A stretch of DNA of 21,652 nt from a virus. Under the pieces are notes generated by a model. That model saw only the letters and a program-made list of their open reading frames with translations. It ran no database searches and had not been told where the DNA came from. The position numbers and the translations under genes are program-made. The stretch lies in the IMG/VR virus record IMGVR_UViG_3300030329_001897, positions 1-21,652 of that record; one strand, 5' to 3'. Position 1 is the stretch's first letter. The number at the start of each line of letters is the position of its first letter. Of the stretch, positions 680 to 21,319 are shown in pieces.

Positions 680-3361
680 TTATACAACGTACCATACATG
701 ACCAGTTCTTTTACCGCTTCCTGATGTTGGTGCAGAAGTTGTAATAGTAAATCTGTCTGAATCAAAGTCAGTCATTGCTACTTGTTTCATTGTTCCGTTA
801 TCGTTGACTACTAATCTGTCTCCGTCTGCAAGTGTTGTAGAACTAGCGGCAGTTCCTCCGTCCATTATATTTAACTCTGCCGCAGTAGCATCTACCGCTG
901 CTAATTTTGTAAAGTCTGCTTGGACTAAACCAGAAACACCATCTAACAAGTTTAATTCTGCCGCAGTACTTGAAACTGCTGTACTTCCTAATACTAATTG
1001 TCCGTCTGGAATAACTGCTCTAGCCGCACCACCAAGAATTAAGTCGTCTTCTGATTCATCCCATAGCATATATGCACTAGCAGTAGCACCAAAGAATTTA
1101 ACATCGTATCCTGTATCGTCAACACCTACAGTAACAGTATTATCTATTTGTACTGCTCCATCAATATCAACAGCATCTAAATTAGTTGTGCCATCTATGT
1201 CTGCATCACCTGAAATATCTAAACTTCCTGCATCTAATTCGCCAGTTAAAGTTACATTTCTAAACGAACCTATATCTTTATTGCTATCTACAACAACCCC
1301 AAGACTAGCAGAAACTGTTCCTGCTGTTACTCCATCAAGAACATTTATTTCAGCAGGAGTAGCACTAATTTGAGTTGTAGTAGCCGCAGCTAAGACTGGA
1401 ATATATCCGCCTTGATTTATTAAATATTGTGTGTGATCTGATGTAGGATCTACTATAGAAAGAGTAGTTTCGTTTGCGTCCGCAGTTGCTCCTTCAAAAA
1501 TAATTGCGTTCTGCGCATTCATTGTAACAGTATCAACAGTTGTTGTTGTACCTGCTACTGTAAGATTAGGAACTAGTAGTTCTCCTGAACTTGGATTGTA
1601 TCTTAATGCTCCTGTATCGTCTAACAAAACATTGCCTGTTCCTTCATCATGGAAGACTACAGGGAAATTAGTGTTTGCTGTGCTATCTGTAACTGTTACT
1701 TTAGACGCAGTACCTGTTGTGTCCTGGTTTAGTGTTCCAATTACAAAGTCAAGTGTGTTGTCTCCGTCTTCATAAGTAACTGTAATACCAGTTTCAGTGT
1801 TAGAGCCAACCATTGCGCCAACTGTGTCGGCAATGTATTCATTTAAAGCTACATCGTCTATTGTTATCGCGTCAGCTTCTAATGTTCCGTCTATATCGGC
1901 ATTTCCTGAAATATCTAAACTTGTTGCGTCTACTTCTCCTGCAACAGTTACTACACCACTTGACAATGTTATTAAATCTGTATCTCCTGTGTGTCCAATA
2001 ACTGCGCCATCAATTACAACATTATCAACAGTAAGTGCTGTAAGAGTTCCAAGACTTGTAATGTTTGTTTGTGCTGCTGTATTTAGCGTACCTGCTAATA
2101 GTGTAGTAGTTAATAAACCACTAGAAGGATTATAGGTAAGTCCAGTATCGCTTTCTGCTCCTTGACTTCCAGTAGCACCATCTACAAAGATTGGGTATAC
2201 TGTTTCGTCTGTGGAGTTATTAGCTGAAATTGTAATGTTATCAGCAGTTCCTGTAGTGTCTTGGTTAAGTGTACCAACTGTAAAGTCTAATGTATTGTCT
2301 CCATCTTGATAAGCTACAGTTATTCCTGACTCAGTATTGCTTGATACCATCGCACCAACTGTATCAGCTATGTATTCGTTCAGAGCTGTTCCGTCTACTG
2401 TAATAGCATCTGCTTCCATAGTGCCATCAACATCTACATCAGTAGAAACAGTTACACTACCTGTTACCGCTAAAGTACTACCATTATATGTTAAACCTGA
2501 TTCAGCATCTAGTTCTGTTGTTGTAGCACCTACTGTAACAAGTTCATTCTCAGTAGCATTATTAAGTGCTGTAACTGTTCCTGTAGCTACAAAATCAAGA
2601 GTATTGTCTGAATCATCGTAAGTAACTGTAATATTTGTCTCAGTATTAGAAGTTACCATTGCTCCTACAGTATCTGCAATATATTCGTTTAATGCAGTTC
2701 CGTCTACTGTATAAGCATCCGCTTCAAGAGTTCCGTCAATATCTGCGTTACCACTTATATCTAAAGTAGCAGAAGTAAGCGCACCACCTATTGTCAAATT
2801 ACCTGAACTAGGATTATAAGTAAACCCTGTGTCTGTCTCTCCTCCTTGACTTCCTGTCGCTCCGTCTACAAATAGTGGATATACAGTTTCGTCTGTAGAA
2901 TTATTGGCGCTAACTGTAATAGACGTTGCTACGTCTGCTGTGCCTGTAACATCTCCTGTTAATGGACCAGCAAAAGCATCAGAAGTTACTGTACCATCAA
3001 AATACGCATCTTTAAATTCTAAAGAACTTGTTCCTAAATCAATATCATTATCTGTAACAGGAACAATAGCTCCATCTTGTATTCTAATCTGTTCTACAGC
3101 AGCACTAGAAACCTCTACAAAGAATCCCCATCTATTATTAGAGTCATCTACTACTATTTTATTAAGGAAATCTAAATCTCCTATTTGAGGAACATTACCG
3201 CCTTGACCTGCTGTACCATCGTGTCTGTGTCCTGTACTTGACGCACTACTTGAACTATAAATAAATGCGTTTACTAATTGATCGTATTCATTATTAAATA
3301 GTGCGGCAGTAATGGTATCGCCATCACTAAATGAACTTTGCCTTGTATAACTTTGTGCCAT
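680..3361 (-). CDS. Tail fibre protein with duplicated modules
   Basis: 893 residues. The N-terminus (residues 10-60, FSDGDTITAALFNNEYDQLV then GHRHDGTAGQGG) resembles the virion-attachment end of marine phage tail fibres. The body is beta-rich and repetitive. Unit A (DISGNADIDGTLEADA, then ALNEYIADTVGAMV, then DNTLDF) is at about residues 200-257, 305-360 and 481-540, with a remnant near 713-730. Unit B (NNSTDETVYP, then FVDGATGSQG, then TYNPSSG) is at about 145-190, 375-415 and, decayed, 551-593. Three short AELN-type motifs ending LLDGV or similar occur at 669-677, 800-809 and 827-834. The C-terminus ends GHVWYVV. Such long repetitive proteins form trimeric fibres that bind the host surface. 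The start has GGGGAG about ten bases upstream and follows the upstream gene by three bases. Receptor-binding role is from family and position. Confidence 0.8.
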   Translation of the reverse strand: MAQSYTRQSSFSDGDTITAALFNNEYDQLVNAFIYSSSSASSTGHRHDGTAGQGGNVPQIGDLDFLNKIVVDDSNNRWGFFVEVSSAAVEQIRIQDGAIVPVTDNDIDLGTSSLEFKDAYFDGTVTSDAFAGPLTGDVTGTADVATSITVSANNSTDETVYPLFVDGATGSQGGETDTGFTYNPSSGNLTIGGALTSATLDISGNADIDGTLEADAYTVDGTALNEYIADTVGAMVTSNTETNITVTYDDSDNTLDFVATGTVTALNNATENELVTVGATTTELDAESGLTYNGSTLAVTGSVTVSTDVDVDGTMEADAITVDGTALNEYIADTVGAMVSSNTESGITVAYQDGDNTLDFTVGTLNQDTTGTADNITISANNSTDETVYPIFVDGATGSQGAESDTGLTYNPSSGLLTTTLLAGTLNTAAQTNITSLGTLTALTVDNVVIDGAVIGHTGDTDLITLSSGVVTVAGEVDATSLDISGNADIDGTLEADAITIDDVALNEYIADTVGAMVGSNTETGITVTYEDGDNTLDFVIGTLNQDTTGTASKVTVTDSTANTNFPVVFHDEGTGNVLLDDTGALRYNPSSGELLVPNLTVAGTTTTVDTVTMNAQNAIIFEGATADANETTLSIVDPTSDHTQYLINQGGYIPVLAAATTTQISATPAEINVLDGVTAGTVSASLGVVVDSNKDIGSFRNVTLTGELDAGSLDISGDADIDGTTNLDAVDIDGAVQIDNTVTVGVDDTGYDVKFFGATASAYMLWDESEDDLILGGAARAVIPDGQLVLGSTAVSSTAAELNLLDGVSGLVQADFTKLAAVDATAAELNIMDGGTAASSTTLADGDRLVVNDNGTMKQVAMTDFDSDRFTITTSAPTSGSGKRTGHVWYVV

Positions 3362-7491: not shown

Positions 7492-8382
7492 TTAACCACG
7501 AACTCTACCTTCGTCTAAAGCCTTATCTATCTCTGATTCGAGACGATCAAACTCATCCATAGGTAGTGCCGCGATCTCCTCCTGAGTCCAAATTTTAGGT
7601 TCTGATGTAGCATCTACAGTAGTAGTCTTTGTGGATACCATATCAGCAGCCTTTGAGCTTGAACTCTTAGACTTATTACGAGTTTGTTTTTTCTGAGAAG
7701 CGTCAAGTAAACCAACGTCTTGCTTAAATAAATCAATAGCTCGACTTGCTAAACGAACATTATGTGGGTTGTTGTACACCCAGGTCTGAATATCTTCTGG
7801 TTGTTCTTTTGCCCAGTCATGAAAGTCATCACTGTCTCGAATGTCTGCAAAATCAGGATGCTTATTAAGCAATTCAGATTCAGCTTCTTTTCTTAGGGCT
7901 ACAGCTTCTCTTTCTTCCAAAAGTTGAATCTTAGCAGTTAATTCTTCTACTTTAGATTCGCTTTGTAAGTGTGAAACTGTTTCAACAACATCATAAACTT
8001 CAGGATATTGTGCCTTAAACTTTTCAAGTTCTTCCGCAGTTTTAGGAGCTTTGTACTCAGGTCGCGAAGCTGTTGCTTCTTGAATAAGTTCTTGCTCCCT
8101 GCTTCTAAATTCGTTAAGTTTAGAATCATAATGTTTTTTAAGATCATCATACCTTTTTTTATAGTTAGGCTTTTTATAGGGCTTGGAATCTTGCGTAGCT
8201 TCTTGTTTTTCCTCTTCTTCAGTTTCTTGAACTTTAGGTTGAGGTTCAACAAATAAACTAGTAGCGTCTAAGCCTTCTTTAGGCATAACATCCTCCGTGT
8301 GCCAAGATTTCTTTGCATTATACGGATTAGGCATGGGTTCATTTTGAGTTTCTTCAGAAACTACATTTTCGTTATCAGTCAT
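7492..8382 (-). CDS. Capsid scaffolding protein
   Basis: 296 residues, acidic and highly charged, predicted helical. Residues 1-80 are disordered and Glu/Gln-rich; a coiled coil runs from about residue 80 to 175 (KKRYDDLKKHYDSKLNEF; VEELTAKIQLLEEREAVALR). A small domain follows (LLNKHPDFADIRDSDDFHDW, then YNNPHNVRLASRAIDLF). The C-terminus ends with a short helical acidic region after Lys/Ser-rich KKQTRNKSKSSSSK. Internal scaffolds of P22-like phages have this composition and sit directly before the coat gene, as here (32-base gap). The ATG follows an excellent GGAAGGAG ribosome site. It should nucleate procapsid assembly and then leave. Confidence 0.75.
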   Translation of the reverse strand: MTDNENVVSEETQNEPMPNPYNAKKSWHTEDVMPKEGLDATSLFVEPQPKVQETEEEEKQEATQDSKPYKKPNYKKRYDDLKKHYDSKLNEFRSREQELIQEATASRPEYKAPKTAEELEKFKAQYPEVYDVVETVSHLQSESKVEELTAKIQLLEEREAVALRKEAESELLNKHPDFADIRDSDDFHDWAKEQPEDIQTWVYNNPHNVRLASRAIDLFKQDVGLLDASQKKQTRNKSKSSSSKAADMVSTKTTTVDATSEPKIWTQEEIAALPMDEFDRLESEIDKALDEGRVRG

Positions 8383-8399
8383 TTTACTCTCCTTCCTTT

Positions 8400-8526
8400 G
8401 TGCTTACTATAACAAGGTGGCTTATTCCAAGAACGTCTTCTCATAAGTGCTTGACCTGTAAGGTGGCATCAAAAGGTATTTACTTTTTTAAGTTATGTAA
8501 AGTGCTGTCTGACTAAAACAGGTGGC
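8400..8526. repeat. Three-copy spaced direct repeat
   Basis: In the 158-base gap between the scaffold gene and the 254-residue gene, the composite motif GTGCT - spacer - AGGTGGC occurs three times on the plus strand: 8400-8421 (10-base spacer), 8447-8467 (9) and 8502-8526 (13). On the transcribed minus strand it reads GCCACCT...AGCAC. Unit starts are 47 and 55 bases apart. This is the only sizeable non-coding gap inside the packaging genes, so the repeats may be a late promoter cluster, a protein-binding site or an RNA element ahead of scaffold and coat. Confidence 0.55.
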
Positions 8527-8540
8527 TTTACGTTATGAAT

Positions 8541-17315: not shown

Positions 17316-17944
17316 TATTTCACCCCCTGACTTTTGATGTACTCATCAATAATCTTTGCCAGTTTGTCAGTCTCAGTTTTGACCTTTTTCTCATCTAATC
17401 GCAGTAAGTAATTGCTGATTTTAGCTGAGAGTTTTTTGGTTGCATCGGTTCTTGCCTTTGCACCACCACGCTGACTGTATGCTTTTCTCACTTCAGTGAA
17501 TGTTGTGGATTTTTTGATCTTTTCACCTGAGCCACCAATTTCTTTGCCTGATTCATTGAGTTGATCTTTATCACTAACATAACTGATTATATATCTAACA
17601 TACTGTTGCATCGTTGCATTAGCACTTGTCCTGTCTTTGTAGGCTATACCAGTGTTACCACTTAGTCCTTGCCTTTTCCAGCCATTCAAGTCCCAAATTT
17701 CATTCCTGACTTTCATAAATGCATCATAAGATTGAGTCTTTAGATGATGATCTTGAAAATAAGAAAGCAACTTTTCACCTTGCTCACTATCGGTTACTTT
17801 TAATTTTTCTCTCTCATCACTTGTCAGGTTTAATGCTTCGTGAATCGTTTTGAAAATTAAAGCACCTTTTGTGATTGTCGTTGAAACACTAAAGGTCTTT
17901 TTGGTTTTCGTTTCTTGGTTTAATTTTTGAGTTTGTTTGCTCAT
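17315..17944 (-). CDS. Hypothetical protein, 209 residues, first of a two-gene module
   Basis: 209 residues, no family recognised. Lys/Thr-rich N-terminus (KLNQETKTKKTFSVSTTITK), helical middle (YDAFMKVRNEIWDLNGWKRQ and TSANATMQQYVRYIISYVSD), a Gly/Lys linker (GKEIGGSGEKIKKS), then a basic helical C-terminus (VRKAYSQRGGAKARTD, KLAKIIDEYIKS). It is strongly basic overall, so DNA binding is plausible. Good ribosome site GGGG with a small hairpin just upstream. It reads against the plus-strand early genes and is set between copies of a 27-bp palindrome, the usual arrangement of an autoregulated DNA-binding protein, but that is inference. Confidence 0.7.
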   Translation of the reverse strand: MSKQTQKLNQETKTKKTFSVSTTITKGALIFKTIHEALNLTSDEREKLKVTDSEQGEKLLSYFQDHHLKTQSYDAFMKVRNEIWDLNGWKRQGLSGNTGIAYKDRTSANATMQQYVRYIISYVSDKDQLNESGKEIGGSGEKIKKSTTFTEVRKAYSQRGGAKARTDATKKLSAKISNYLLRLDEKKVKTETDKLAKIIDEYIKSQGVK

Positions 17945-17955
17945 TTGTTTCCCCT

Positions 17956-17969
17956 TGCATAAAAATGCA
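17956..17969 (-). promoter_or_regulatory. Hairpin beside a ribosome site
   Basis: TGCAT (17956-17960), four-base loop, ATGCA (17965-17969), adjacent to the GGGG ribosome site of the 209-residue gene. It could be an mRNA stem controlling translation or a small operator. A weak TTGACG -35-like element lies further upstream with only a poor -10, so no promoter is called. Confidence 0.4.
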
Positions 17970-18116
17970 GTTGTGAAACGTCAACCACCAACTTAACTTG
18001 TCATATTTTTAAAGAACACTGTTGCAGGACATAATCCCACTATTTCATTTTCTCAAAAATCGACCTGTATATCAAACTTATTACCCTGAAAAAAAATAAC
18101 CCTCTATAAACTTCTT

Positions 18117-18143
18117 TTACAACTCTTTGCACTGCAAAGACTT
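18117..18143 (+). repeat. 27-bp palindromic element, copy 2
   Basis: Identical over 27 bases to copy 3, and copy 1 is its exact reverse complement over the same length. Core CTTTGCACTGCAAAG at 18124-18138. It stands 173 bases upstream of the 209-residue gene start and just before the four-copy 22-bp repeat. Confidence 0.85.
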
Positions 18144-18174
18144 ACCACTACCCTCAGCTCAGCCTGGATATTTC

Positions 18175-18310
18175 TTATATATGCTTTAATAGGTAGCAAG
18201 GTCAGCTCAAATATTTCTAAAGTTATTTATAGATGCTCTAATAGGTAGGAATTTTTTTATATATGCTTTAATAGATAGGCTAGATTTTTTATATATGCTT
18301 TAATAGGTAG
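18175..18310 (+). repeat. Four-copy 22-bp direct repeat (iteron-like)
   Basis: Copies at 18175-18196, 18227-18248, 18257-18278 and 18289-18310. Copies 1 and 4 are identical; copy 2 differs at two positions and copy 3 at one. The unit begins TTATATATGC and ends TTTAATAGGTAG. Starts are 52, 30 and 32 bases apart, close to whole helical turns, so the last three lie on one DNA face. Features fit replication iterons or binding sites of one regulator; a phage-polymerase promoter cluster is an alternative. No gene is present from 17945 to 18460. Confidence 0.8.
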
Positions 18311-18416
18311 CTGAAGGTAGGATTTTTTTGAGGTCGATTATTTGCAATCGTTTCAGGGTTACTGTAAAATGGTGCGTAGCACCAGAAAATAAAATGATGC
18401 TAAAAATATAAACCAA

Positions 18417-18443
18417 TTACAACTCTTTGCACTGCAAAGACTT
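18417..18443 (+). repeat. 27-bp palindromic element, copy 3
   Basis: Exact copy of that at 18117, exactly 300 bases further on. It ends 17 bases before the ATG of the first plus-strand gene, overlapping where its promoter or leader must be, so it is the copy best placed to act as an operator. Confidence 0.85.
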
Positions 18444-18460
18444 ATACAAAGGGGAAAAAA

Positions 18461-19454: not shown

Positions 19455-19578
19455 AGAAGAAATGATTGAACAAATAAGAATCATATTAAAAGCTAACGAG
19501 GACAATCCTCATTGTTCTGTAGAGTTCTTAGTAGCTATGATTAAAGAAGTGATAGAGGAGGAGTCTGATGATACCTAA
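19444..19578 (+). CDS. Hypothetical acidic protein, 44 residues
   Basis: ATG at 19444 opens 44 codons to TAA at 19576-19578. Sequence MISKEEMIEQIRIILKANED, then EFLVAMIKEVIEEES: a small amphipathic acidic helix pair. It overlaps both neighbours by exactly 11 bases, filling an otherwise empty interval, so it is probably translated. It also carries the GAGGAGG ribosome site for the next gene. Function unknown. Confidence 0.5.
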   Translation: MISKEEMIEQIRIILKANEDNPHCSVEFLVAMIKEVIEEESDDT

Positions 19579-20293
19579 AATAAGTAAGACTTCTAAGATG
19601 CCTTCAGAGAGCTGGTCTACAAGAGCATGGGACACTTGTCCTGCTAAGATTAACTTAAAGACTAGGGAAGTAGACGATGCTTGTAAGACTTGCTATGCTA
19701 GGTTTGGACATTATAGGATGCCTACAGTAGAGAAGGCTAGAGAACATAACGAAAGGGCATGGAAAGACGACATCTTTGTTCCTTACATGGTCAATTATCT
19801 GGAGCCACATAGATTATTTAGGTGGTTTGATAGTGGGGACATGTATCATATAAGGTTAGCTGAAAAAATATATGAGGTATGTAAGCAAACAGAGTGGTGT
19901 AGGCATTGGATTCCTACCAGGATGTATAAGATAGATAAGTTTAAGGATGTAATAGATAGGTTAAACAATCTACCTAATGTTGTTGTTAGGTTCTCAAGTC
20001 CTAGTATAGTAGGCGAAGTTATAGAGGGAAGATATACTTCTACTATAATACCTTCAAAAGATTATAAGACTAAAGCAAAAGTATGTTATGCTTACTTAAC
20101 AGATAAGAAAGGTAGGGTTTGGAGAGCTGAAGATAAAGAAAGACTCACTAAAGAACAAATAAGAGAGCAAGACTTTGGACACTGTGGAACTTGTAGGTCT
20201 TGTTGGTCTAAAGAAGAACAAACAATAGCTTATGTAGGGCATGGGCAGGTAATGAAGAGTGTATTAAAGAAGAAAGGTTTAATAAAAGGTTGA
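19568..20293 (+). CDS. Cys-rich protein of the phage gp88 family
   Basis: 241 residues. Pattern: DTCP with C24, CKTCYARFGHYR (C39, C42), a helix with EHNERAW, then RLFRWFDSGDMYH (82-94) and RHWIPTRMYKIDKF, and near the end a cluster HCGTCRSC with C206, C209 and C212. I recognise this order (C-P, C-x-x-C-Y-A-x-x-G-x-Y, R-x-x-x-S-G-D, then C-x-x-C-x-x-C) from the gene-product-88 family of mycobacteriophages and marine phages, whose function is not established. The Cys sets could bind zinc or an iron-sulphur cluster; an SAM-radical-like role is only a suggestion from the CxxCY motif. Good GAGGAGG site before the ATG. Confidence 0.75.
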   Translation: MIPKISKTSKMPSESWSTRAWDTCPAKINLKTREVDDACKTCYARFGHYRMPTVEKAREHNERAWKDDIFVPYMVNYLEPHRLFRWFDSGDMYHIRLAEKIYEVCKQTEWCRHWIPTRMYKIDKFKDVIDRLNNLPNVVVRFSSPSIVGEVIEGRYTSTIIPSKDYKTKAKVCYAYLTDKKGRVWRAEDKERLTKEQIREQDFGHCGTCRSCWSKEEQTIAYVGHGQVMKSVLKKKGLIKG

Positions 20294-20448
20294 GATAGAT
20301 GTGGTCTATCGGGCAAGGGTGGGTAAAACTAGGTACTTCAGTTGAAATACTATAATAGACAAGGCAGATACAACGAAGTTAAAGGTACTGCACCTAGTTA
20401 AAATTTCTATAGGCTAAAGAGCAGTTGCCTTAATATACTGCTCACTTT
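20294..20448 (+). ncRNA. Candidate structured RNA with pseudoknot
   Basis: Between the gp88-like stop and the 121-residue gene. Helices: P0 GATAGA/TCTATC (20294-20310); P1 AACTAGGT (20327-20334) with ACCTAGTT (20392-20399); P2 ACTTC-A-GTTG (20335-20344) with CAACGAAGT (20371-20379), stacked on P1; P3 GAGCAGT (20419-20425) with ACTGCTC (20437-20443), extended by AAA/TTT. The P3 loop TGCCTT (20426-20431) is complementary to AAGGCA (20361-20366) in the P2 loop, a crossing pairing. The gene start with its AGAGGGG site follows at once, so this may be a cis-regulatory element such as a riboswitch, or a separate RNA. No known class recognised. Confidence 0.55.
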
Positions 20449-20463
20449 AATCAGAGGGGTATT

Positions 20464-20829
20464 ATGTCTGAGTATGTAATAAAGAACGTTCCTTGTGGGA
20501 ACTACAAAGAGAAGGAAGACTACCAAAAGTTTATTGATATGCTGAGAAGTGGGCTAGAAGGAACACCTTTTAGAATATCTAAGCAAAGAGGTAGAGGACC
20601 AAGAAGAGAAACAGCGATGGCGCATGGACTACATCCTACAGCCTACGATCAGGACTTACCTGTAGAGTATTCTACAACAGCAACAGTCTATATAGATTGG
20701 AGAGATAGTAGAAAGGCAAGGATAGCTAGGCTATTAGAGCAAAGAAGAAGTTATTCTTATGTTAAGTGGATGCTTGATAAAGAGCTGAACAGAGTGGATC
20801 GCATGATCGAGGAGCTGTCTGATGGGTAA
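20464..20829 (+). CDS. Hypothetical basic protein, 121 residues
   Basis: 121 residues. N-terminal MSEYVIKNVPCGNYKEKEDY, middle FRISKQRGRGPRRET with an Arg/Gly cluster, then VEYSTTATVYIDWRDSRKAR and a helical C-terminus SYVKWMLDKELNRVDR. One cysteine (C11). No family recognised. It follows the structured segment and has an AGAGGGG site. Overlaps the next gene by eight bases. Confidence 0.6.
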   Translation: MSEYVIKNVPCGNYKEKEDYQKFIDMLRSGLEGTPFRISKQRGRGPRRETAMAHGLHPTAYDQDLPVEYSTTATVYIDWRDSRKARIARLLEQRRSYSYVKWMLDKELNRVDRMIEELSDG

Positions 20830-21082
20830 GGTTAAAGAACACCTAATGGATTTAGAAGAGGCAGTCTTAGATGTATCAGGCGAGGCATATGATAGGATGG
20901 ATTTGAAGGGAGTTCTTGAAAAGAATTATGTCCACTACTATCCTATGTTTGTTGAGCAGGTAGTTAAATTATTACGCAAACAAAATCATCCTTTAGCTGA
21001 TGATACCTGGCTAGAAGATGTAGCAATAAAATATTACATGGAAGAAATTCTTGGTATTGAGTGGGATTTTGCAAAGGAGTAA
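20822..21082 (+). CDS. Hypothetical acidic protein, 86 residues
   Basis: 86 residues, acidic and helical: MGKVKEHLMDLEEAVLDVSG, then YVHYYPMFVEQVVKLLRKQN and WLEDVAIKYYMEEILGI. No motif or membrane segment. It starts eight bases before the end of the previous gene and ends at 21082, followed by an inverted repeat and likely promoter. Function unknown. Confidence 0.6.
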   Translation: MGKVKEHLMDLEEAVLDVSGEAYDRMDLKGVLEKNYVHYYPMFVEQVVKLLRKQNHPLADDTWLEDVAIKYYMEEILGIEWDFAKE

Positions 21083-21108
21083 GACAACAGCCTATAATAA
21101 GTGTTGTC
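21069..21108 (+). promoter_or_regulatory. Possible promoter within an inverted repeat
   Basis: GACAACA (21083-21089) and TGTTGTC (21102-21108) form a seven-base inverted repeat whose loop holds TATAAT (21093-21098). A TTGCAA (21069-21074), four of six to consensus, lies 18 bases before it. Together they could be a regulated promoter for the gene at 21128, with the repeat as an operator or an RNA hairpin. Confidence 0.4.
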
Positions 21109-21127: not shown

Positions 21128-21319
21128 ATGACTGGAATAACAGTAGACGCTACTCGTAATGAAAGCTATGGTAGATTCTATAACTTACTTAATCTGGTTT
21201 CAGGTAAGTATGGTAGACGAATCTACGCTAGTCGATGGGAAATAGTTCGATCAGGCTTGGGAACGGAAGTTCATCTTGGTCGTTTCTACATTACCTTTAG
21301 ATTAGTTAGCTTTTCATAA
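21128..21319 (+). CDS. Hypothetical protein, 63 residues
   Basis: An ATG at 21128 with a GAGGAG site six bases upstream is preferred to the GTG at 21101, which lies in the inverted repeat. 63 residues, basic and beta-like: MTGITVDATRNESYGRFYNL, RIYASRWEIV, HLGRFYITFRLV. No family recognised. Confidence 0.6.
   Translation: MTGITVDATRNESYGRFYNLLNLVSGKYGRRIYASRWEIVRSGLGTEVHLGRFYITFRLVSFS

Follow-up and report, generated by a model that had tools for sequence, protein, structure and literature searches.

Directly upstream of a small early gene in a fragment of a marine phage genome lies an intergenic interval of 170 nt, and the question is whether it encodes a structured RNA and what such an RNA would do there. 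A preliminary description made from the sequence alone had drawn four helices (6, 8, 9 and 7 bp) and a loop-loop contact in this interval, and had proposed a ligand- or protein-responsive switch of no known class just before a ribosome site. All four helices are present as pairings in the sequence. As judged from its homologues, the interval is a real, previously undescribed structured RNA, with two pseudoknots in a row that are conserved in relatives. The leader that it forms probably controls the expression strength of the following gene.

The locus and its features

The window, i.e., the whole stretch of DNA analysed, is an IMG/VR virus record of 21.6 kb. The large terminase encoded in it shares 65% identity with those of the Pelagibacter phages HTVC103P, HTVC104P and HTVC115P and 48% with that of HMO-2011, and the window is therefore regarded as a fragment of an HMO-2011-type podovirus. 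Phages of this type constitute a dominant marine viral group; noncoding RNAs, riboswitches and promoters go unmentioned in one paper on the genomes of the group (PMC9038755). In the window the structural genes are on the minus strand, and small early genes are on the plus strand from 18.46 kb. The features of the interval are listed in Table 1. As had been described, the element precedes a ribosome site and lies in the leader of the gene that follows. No Pfam or PHROG match was obtained for this 121-aa gene. The hairpin at the 5′ end of the interval is also present in L083 as GATATA-TGCGT-TATATC, a compensated change, in a module of 87.5% identity over 48 nt (L-numbers denote the loci compared).

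Table 1. Positions of the features of the interval and its flanks in the window.
Feature	Position	Strand	Basis or remark
Upstream gene, gp88-like (PF17338)	19568..20293	+	Pfam match
5′ hairpin GATAGA-TGTGG-TCTATC, 6 bp (20294-20299 / 20305-20310)	20294..20310	+	Inverted repeat; directly after gp88 stop codon
G-rich linker GGGCAAGGGTGGG after 5′ hairpin	20311-20323	+	
73-nt core: P1 enclosing H-type pseudoknot	20327..20399	+	8 distinct sequences, homologous contigs
P1, 8 bp, AACTAGGT:ACCTAGTT	20327-20334 with 20392-20399	+	Covariation
P2, ACTTC:GAAGT (RNA ACUUC:GAAGU)	20335-20339 with 20375-20379	+	U-A, U-G, C-G at one pair
P2, possible extension GTT:AAC	20341-20343 with 20372-20374	+	Pairs in 7 of 8 at sole variable position; no double change
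Conserved 24-nt loop AGTTGAAATACTATAATAGACAAG between P2 and P3	20340..20363	+	8-sequence alignment; invariant at 23 of 24 positions
P3, GCAG-A-TAC:GTACTGC (RNA GCAG-A-UAC:GUACUGC), crosses P2	20364-20367 and 20369-20371 with 20385-20391	+	C-G to U-A in L235, L299
3′ H-type pseudoknot (S1 and S2)	20411..20443	+	Covariation, position
S1, AGGC:GCCT (RNA AGGC:GCCU), crosses S2	20411-20414 with 20427-20430	+	Changes to AGGT:ACCT, AAAGGTG:CACCTTT
S2, 7 bp, GAGCAGT:ACTGCTC (RNA GAGCAGU:ACUGCUC)	20419-20425 with 20437-20443	+	Covariation
Shine-Dalgarno AGAGGGG	20453..20459	+	Sequence; ATG at 20464
Downstream gene, 121 aa, YDQDLP family	20464..20829	+	Distant homologues in L099, L102, L001, L088
Second RBS-proximal pseudoknot, AGG:CCT crossing GACAACA:TGTTGTC	21075..21108	+	Before 63-aa gene at 21128

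Elsewhere in the window, the leader of the gene at 7492-8382 (8383-8540, minus strand) has three tandem hairpin-like repeats GCCACC ... GCAC, e.g. GTAAAGCCACCTGTTTTAGTCAGACAGCACTTTAC. Related blocks are intergenic in L093, L095, L099 and L101, a similar GCTACC...GCCC pattern occurs in 11 other loci, and the repeats look like another undescribed tandem RNA element. Between the divergent late and early genes (17940-18460), ATATGCTTTAATAGGTAG recurs about four times in the manner of an iteron and CAACTCTTTGCACTGCAAAGACTTA occurs twice (18120, 18420), and clusters of TTATCCACA are found in the large intergenic region of relatives such as L119; the region is a possible origin.

Fold, covariation and occurrence of the core

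The folding energy of the 170 nt is ordinary (z -0.80; 43 of 200 shuffles are equally or more stable), and evidence beyond chance therefore comes from homologues only. The 73-nt core was found in 16–17 other IMG/VR contigs. An exact 21-mer of the second helix retrieved five of them, and with looser patterns the list grew to 15 contigs besides the window (L094, L156 and L158 are second reads of contigs already listed). Including the window there are eight distinct versions (window; L081/82/84/85; L083; L087/92; L088/89/91; L090; L235 with L248/272, whose core is identical; L299), all from metagenomic contigs, and the comparison contains four double-changed pairs. Each contig, up to 53.6 kb in length, has a single strong match. 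Core identity is 86–99%, against mostly 60–85% in the downstream gene and usually 58–66% in the upstream gene; two flanking-gene comparisons exceed those ranges through mosaicism or close kinship.

The core is missing from L001/L093 (55.7 kb), the window's nearest relative by gp88 and small terminase. Among isolate phages of an annotated collection, blastn with two core versions found no core, and covariance model R1 found no distant cores in relatives or isolate phages. Two pattern matches in bacterial genomes were discarded, since an estimate predicts roughly as many and they do not share the gap lengths of the core family. Only L173 scored, weakly (14.5 bits), and nhmmer matches of the L116 type turned out to be coding sequence.

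In the core, P1 (AACUAGGU:ACCUAGUU in RNA letters) encloses P2, which is itself crossed by P3. The strands run continuously from P1 into P2 on the 5′ side and from P3 into P1 on the 3′ side of this H-type pseudoknot. The two consecutive helices of the preliminary description do occur, ACTTC-A-GTTG / CAAC-GAAGT (20335-20344 with 20371-20379) stacking directly on the 8-bp helix. The full 9-bp form of P2 was rejected because its fourth extension pair competes with a covarying pair of P3, a helix absent from that drawing.

Variable columns in the eight-sequence alignment fall mostly on base pairs. Columns 3/71 of P1 are C-G, G-C or U-A, and columns 1/73 flip between A-U and U-A. In P2, columns 12/50 hold U-A, U-G and C-G. 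The outer pair of P3 (columns 45/59) is C-G, or U-A in L235 and L299, two backgrounds with different P1. Paired cells amount to 97.5% in the core helices, compared with 20–42% when the partners are slid. When substitution patterns were shuffled among columns with relatedness kept (seven sequences, without L299), none of 100,000 permutations reached the observed four double-changed pairs. By this alignment P1, P2 and P3 all show compensatory changes. Of the helices first drawn, the 8-bp one, the inner one in its 5-bp form and the 7-bp one (S2, see below) are preserved by such changes in homologues.

The pseudoknots supported by the homologues are P2/P3 and S1/S2, and not the one that had been drawn. 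For the proposed loop-loop contact between AAGGCA (20361-20366) and TGCCTT (20426-20431), the letters are complementary but the pairing is without support. There is no variation where both halves occur, hence no covariation; the GCA of the first half is the 5′ part of the covarying P3; the GCC of the second has a local partner, in phages that lack the core as well; and L088 and L299 have the core with neither a 3′ hairpin nor a TGCCTT partner. P3 (20364-20371 with 20385-20391) and the local AGGC:GCCT account for the conserved bases of both segments.

The start-proximal pseudoknot and the modular leader

The 3′ pseudoknot is 33 nt long and ends 20 nt before the AUG in the window. Among nine sequences, five of eight S2 pairs are changed on both sides, and double-changed cells number 13, compared with 0–2 for slid partners. 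The same architecture precedes other small genes in related phages, mostly phages without the core (L001, L160, L161, L150, L149, L151, L109, a second copy in L085/L081, and the window's 63-aa gene with its L099 homologue). In L099, the counterpart of the pseudoknot before the 63-aa gene is AAAGGTG:CACCTTT crossing (T)GACAACA:TGTTGTC(A). S2 sequences are many and different, and S1 takes the forms AGGC:GCCU, GGGC:GCCC, AGGU:ACCU and AAAGGUG:CACCUUU. Despite these changed stem sequences, the distance from the end of S2 to the AUG is 19–25 nt in 15 of 16 instances; the exception is the L085 row, for which the automatic scorer chose another pairing, and the near-identical L081 row has 23 nt. Selection on both folds, a position in leaders and a constant distance from the second pseudoknot to the AUG are directly supported by these comparisons. 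An alternative fold in which the S2′ strand sequesters the AGAGGGG, as in the minimum free energy structure of the window, was set aside; by inspection, its pairing is fair in the window and L235 and poor or missing at the other loci.

At six loci in four backgrounds (L083, L085, L087, L090, L235, L248), a sigma70-like promoter was found that has two mismatches and a spacer of exactly 17 nt; its -10 ends 47–150 nt 5′ of the core. Each match alone has P of about 0.07–0.15 against shuffles; together, the promoters in four independent backgrounds are suggestive. Their presence upstream in several lineages argues that the interval is a 5′ leader. In the window, L088 and L299, where the element is located mid-operon, no promoter was found nearby on the upstream side. 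The core precedes three unrelated genes, of the MSRIT family in most loci, the YDQDLP family in the window, and a ssDNA-binding protein gene in L088 and L299. The L088 protein is 34–35% identical to HTVC103P gp36, annotated as a putative ssDNA-binding protein, and to HTVC115P gp23; the L299 gene was assigned from its first codons. Between the window's downstream small-protein family and the MSRIT family no homology could be demonstrated. AlphaFold models of the downstream small proteins were poor (pLDDT 50–55), too poor for a fold search, and offered no clue to RNA binding.

Between phages, whole modules of the leaders are gained or lost. L083 (8494-8570) and L090 (7843-7919) have a 77-nt hairpin of 98.7% identity between the core and the 3′ pseudoknot, an insertion of ~103 nt in L235 is missing from L248 and present at 88% in L160, and the 5′ module of L088 has a 95% identical copy in L099, a locus without the core. 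Short hairpins open some promoter-proximal leaders, e.g. GCTTTCGAGC after the L087 promoter.

The following observations were also made on these leaders. Within the 77-nt hairpin of L083 and L090, GATGC:GCATC crossing GTTAGAA:TTCTAAC looks like a third H-type pseudoknot. A module of 85–102 nt with GGG/CCC ends and two inner hairpins occurs at L235:6381-6482, L160:2999-3081 and L161:660-718, and is cleanly present in L235 and absent in L248. Another, of ~78 nt (UCUAUCC...GGAUAGA, with inner AUGAGAGCCAACGC and GUCGCAGAC), occurs on the minus strand at L088:4261-4342, L099:7764-7841 and L101:110-167 and just 5′ of the core in L299, and is a candidate for a separate structured RNA. The module between core and gene in L299, GTGTTGACAGGCACTA...AACTAC, is shared with L160 (about 3000-3230, minus strand) in leaders of different genes, and a related block is found in a 14-locus family. 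Identity between L083 and L087 is 99% on the downstream side of the leader (108 nt) and 62% on its upstream side, a break taken as a recombination junction within or beside the conserved RNA.

Possible functions and related RNAs

With roughly even confidence, the interval is read as a cis-acting leader in which two independent pseudoknotted elements control translation initiation or mRNA stability. Both elements would work in cis on their mRNA. A trans-acting factor, most probably a protein, would recognise the near-invariant core loop, and as the core stands before three unrelated early genes, such a factor would act on a small regulon and not on one gene. The RBS-proximal pseudoknot would set ribosome access and/or protect the 5′ side of the translation start, with its end, ~20 nt before the AUG, roughly where an initiating 30S subunit has its upstream edge. 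That a compact RNA with a near-invariant loop is more conserved than the surrounding genes suggests a specific binding partner, which could be found by pull-down. More tentatively, HMO-2011-type phages may possess a repertoire (at least six modules seen) of undescribed, exchangeable pseudoknotted leaders, placed cassette-like before early genes and served by a common phage- or host-encoded factor. Such modular leaders would be a testable system of phages rewiring early gene expression via RNA domain shuffling.

A leader that only stabilises the mRNA, its tandem pseudoknots and 5′ hairpins blocking 5′-end-dependent decay by RNase E or 5′-3′ decay by RNase J with no specific regulator, is rather unlikely. 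Long leaders and stackable modules fit a pure stability role equally well, and the short hairpins at the start of some promoter-proximal leaders and the exchangeability of modules that are not tied to one gene speak for it, but a plain barrier leaves the invariance of the 24-nt loop unexplained.

It is less probable that the core is a riboswitch, an aptamer for a metabolite that changes in level on infection. The small pseudoknot riboswitches (SAM-II, preQ1 types, NAD+-II) are H-type pseudoknots of 5′ leaders in which a loop is conserved. The core is similar to such aptamers in size and has, like them, a closing stem (P1), a conserved loop and an H-type pseudoknot embedded in it, and the one strong match per contig is in keeping with this. 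Unlike them, it has no Rfam match: Rfam 15 gave none at the gathering score in the window and in 12 related loci, and at E up to 10 it gave only an irrelevant MEG3_2 match outside the element and no riboswitch, which agrees with the absence of a recognised class in the preliminary description. In riboswitches the fold is linked to the Shine-Dalgarno sequence or a terminator, whereas the marine core has no such conserved link. The sequence 3′ of it is wholly different between lineages, being ~50 nt of plain unstructured A/U-rich sequence in L088, a different module in L299 and the 3′ pseudoknot in most others. The lack of a conserved expression platform makes a riboswitch the less likely reading. 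Of the switch first proposed, the metabolite-responsive form thus loses ground, and these comparisons favour a translation or stability operator over it.

The put RNA of phage HK022 is a structured RNA of about 70 nt in an early phage transcript. An antiterminator of this kind, acting on RNA polymerase downstream of early promoters, would be in accord with the early region and the single strong match per contig. The proximity to a promoter expected of it is seen at six loci in several lineages and not in the window, L088 and L299. Such a role is very unlikely, as the window and L088 carry the element mid-operon with no near promoter and the RBS spacing would be needless. The core also differs from put in its layout (a pseudoknot within P1), in its mid-operon place in some phages and in the added RBS-proximal pseudoknot.

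The chances are slimmer still that the interval is no leader and yields a trans-acting small RNA, or serves at the DNA level as a recombination boundary or origin. Modules move between leaders, and the identity break between L083 and L087 indicates exchange near the leader; against this, the compensatory changes indicate folding as a single strand, no terminator-like hairpin with a T-tract lies 3′ of the element on the plus strand of the window, and the window has no exact DnaA box. A coding remnant is hardly credible: one frame of the core reads (L)KYYNRQGRYSGVKGTAPS, YNRQGR is a common phage protein C-terminus and exact 16-nt matches to TAAYAGACAAGGCAGA (20353-20368) occur in many phage genes ending in it, but these matches stem from a search pattern chosen by the authors and were judged a coincidence, an in-frame TAG four codons earlier is invariant, and most variable sites are non-synonymous (e.g. 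AAY to AAG in L299) and fall on paired positions.

For the reading as a cis-acting leader with two pseudoknotted elements, the RBS-proximal pseudoknot can be compared with the pseudoknot operator of T4 gene 32. In the T4 operator, a pseudoknot of ~28 nt is followed on its 3′ side by a stretch with less structure that contains the translation signals (PMC535899). The autogenous operators of gene 32 in T4 and RB69 and the marine leader have in common a short H-type pseudoknot in a phage mRNA leader, followed by less structured sequence in which the Shine-Dalgarno lies, and by covariation and position S1/S2 is such a pseudoknot 5′ of the translation start. The T4 operator is repressed by the bound phage SSB, and the core of L088 and L299 precedes a ssDNA-binding protein gene. 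Unlike the T4 operator, the marine leader stands before several unrelated genes and has, 5′ of this pseudoknot, a core that is larger and also pseudoknotted. The less structured T4 sequence between pseudoknot and start contains UUAAA/UAAA repeats and exceeds 40 nt (PMC535899). In the marine leaders this distance is 19–25 nt, and membership in the class is not claimed because the stretch is too short. The T4 gene 32 operator is a comparable system and the closest working analogue of the marine leader.
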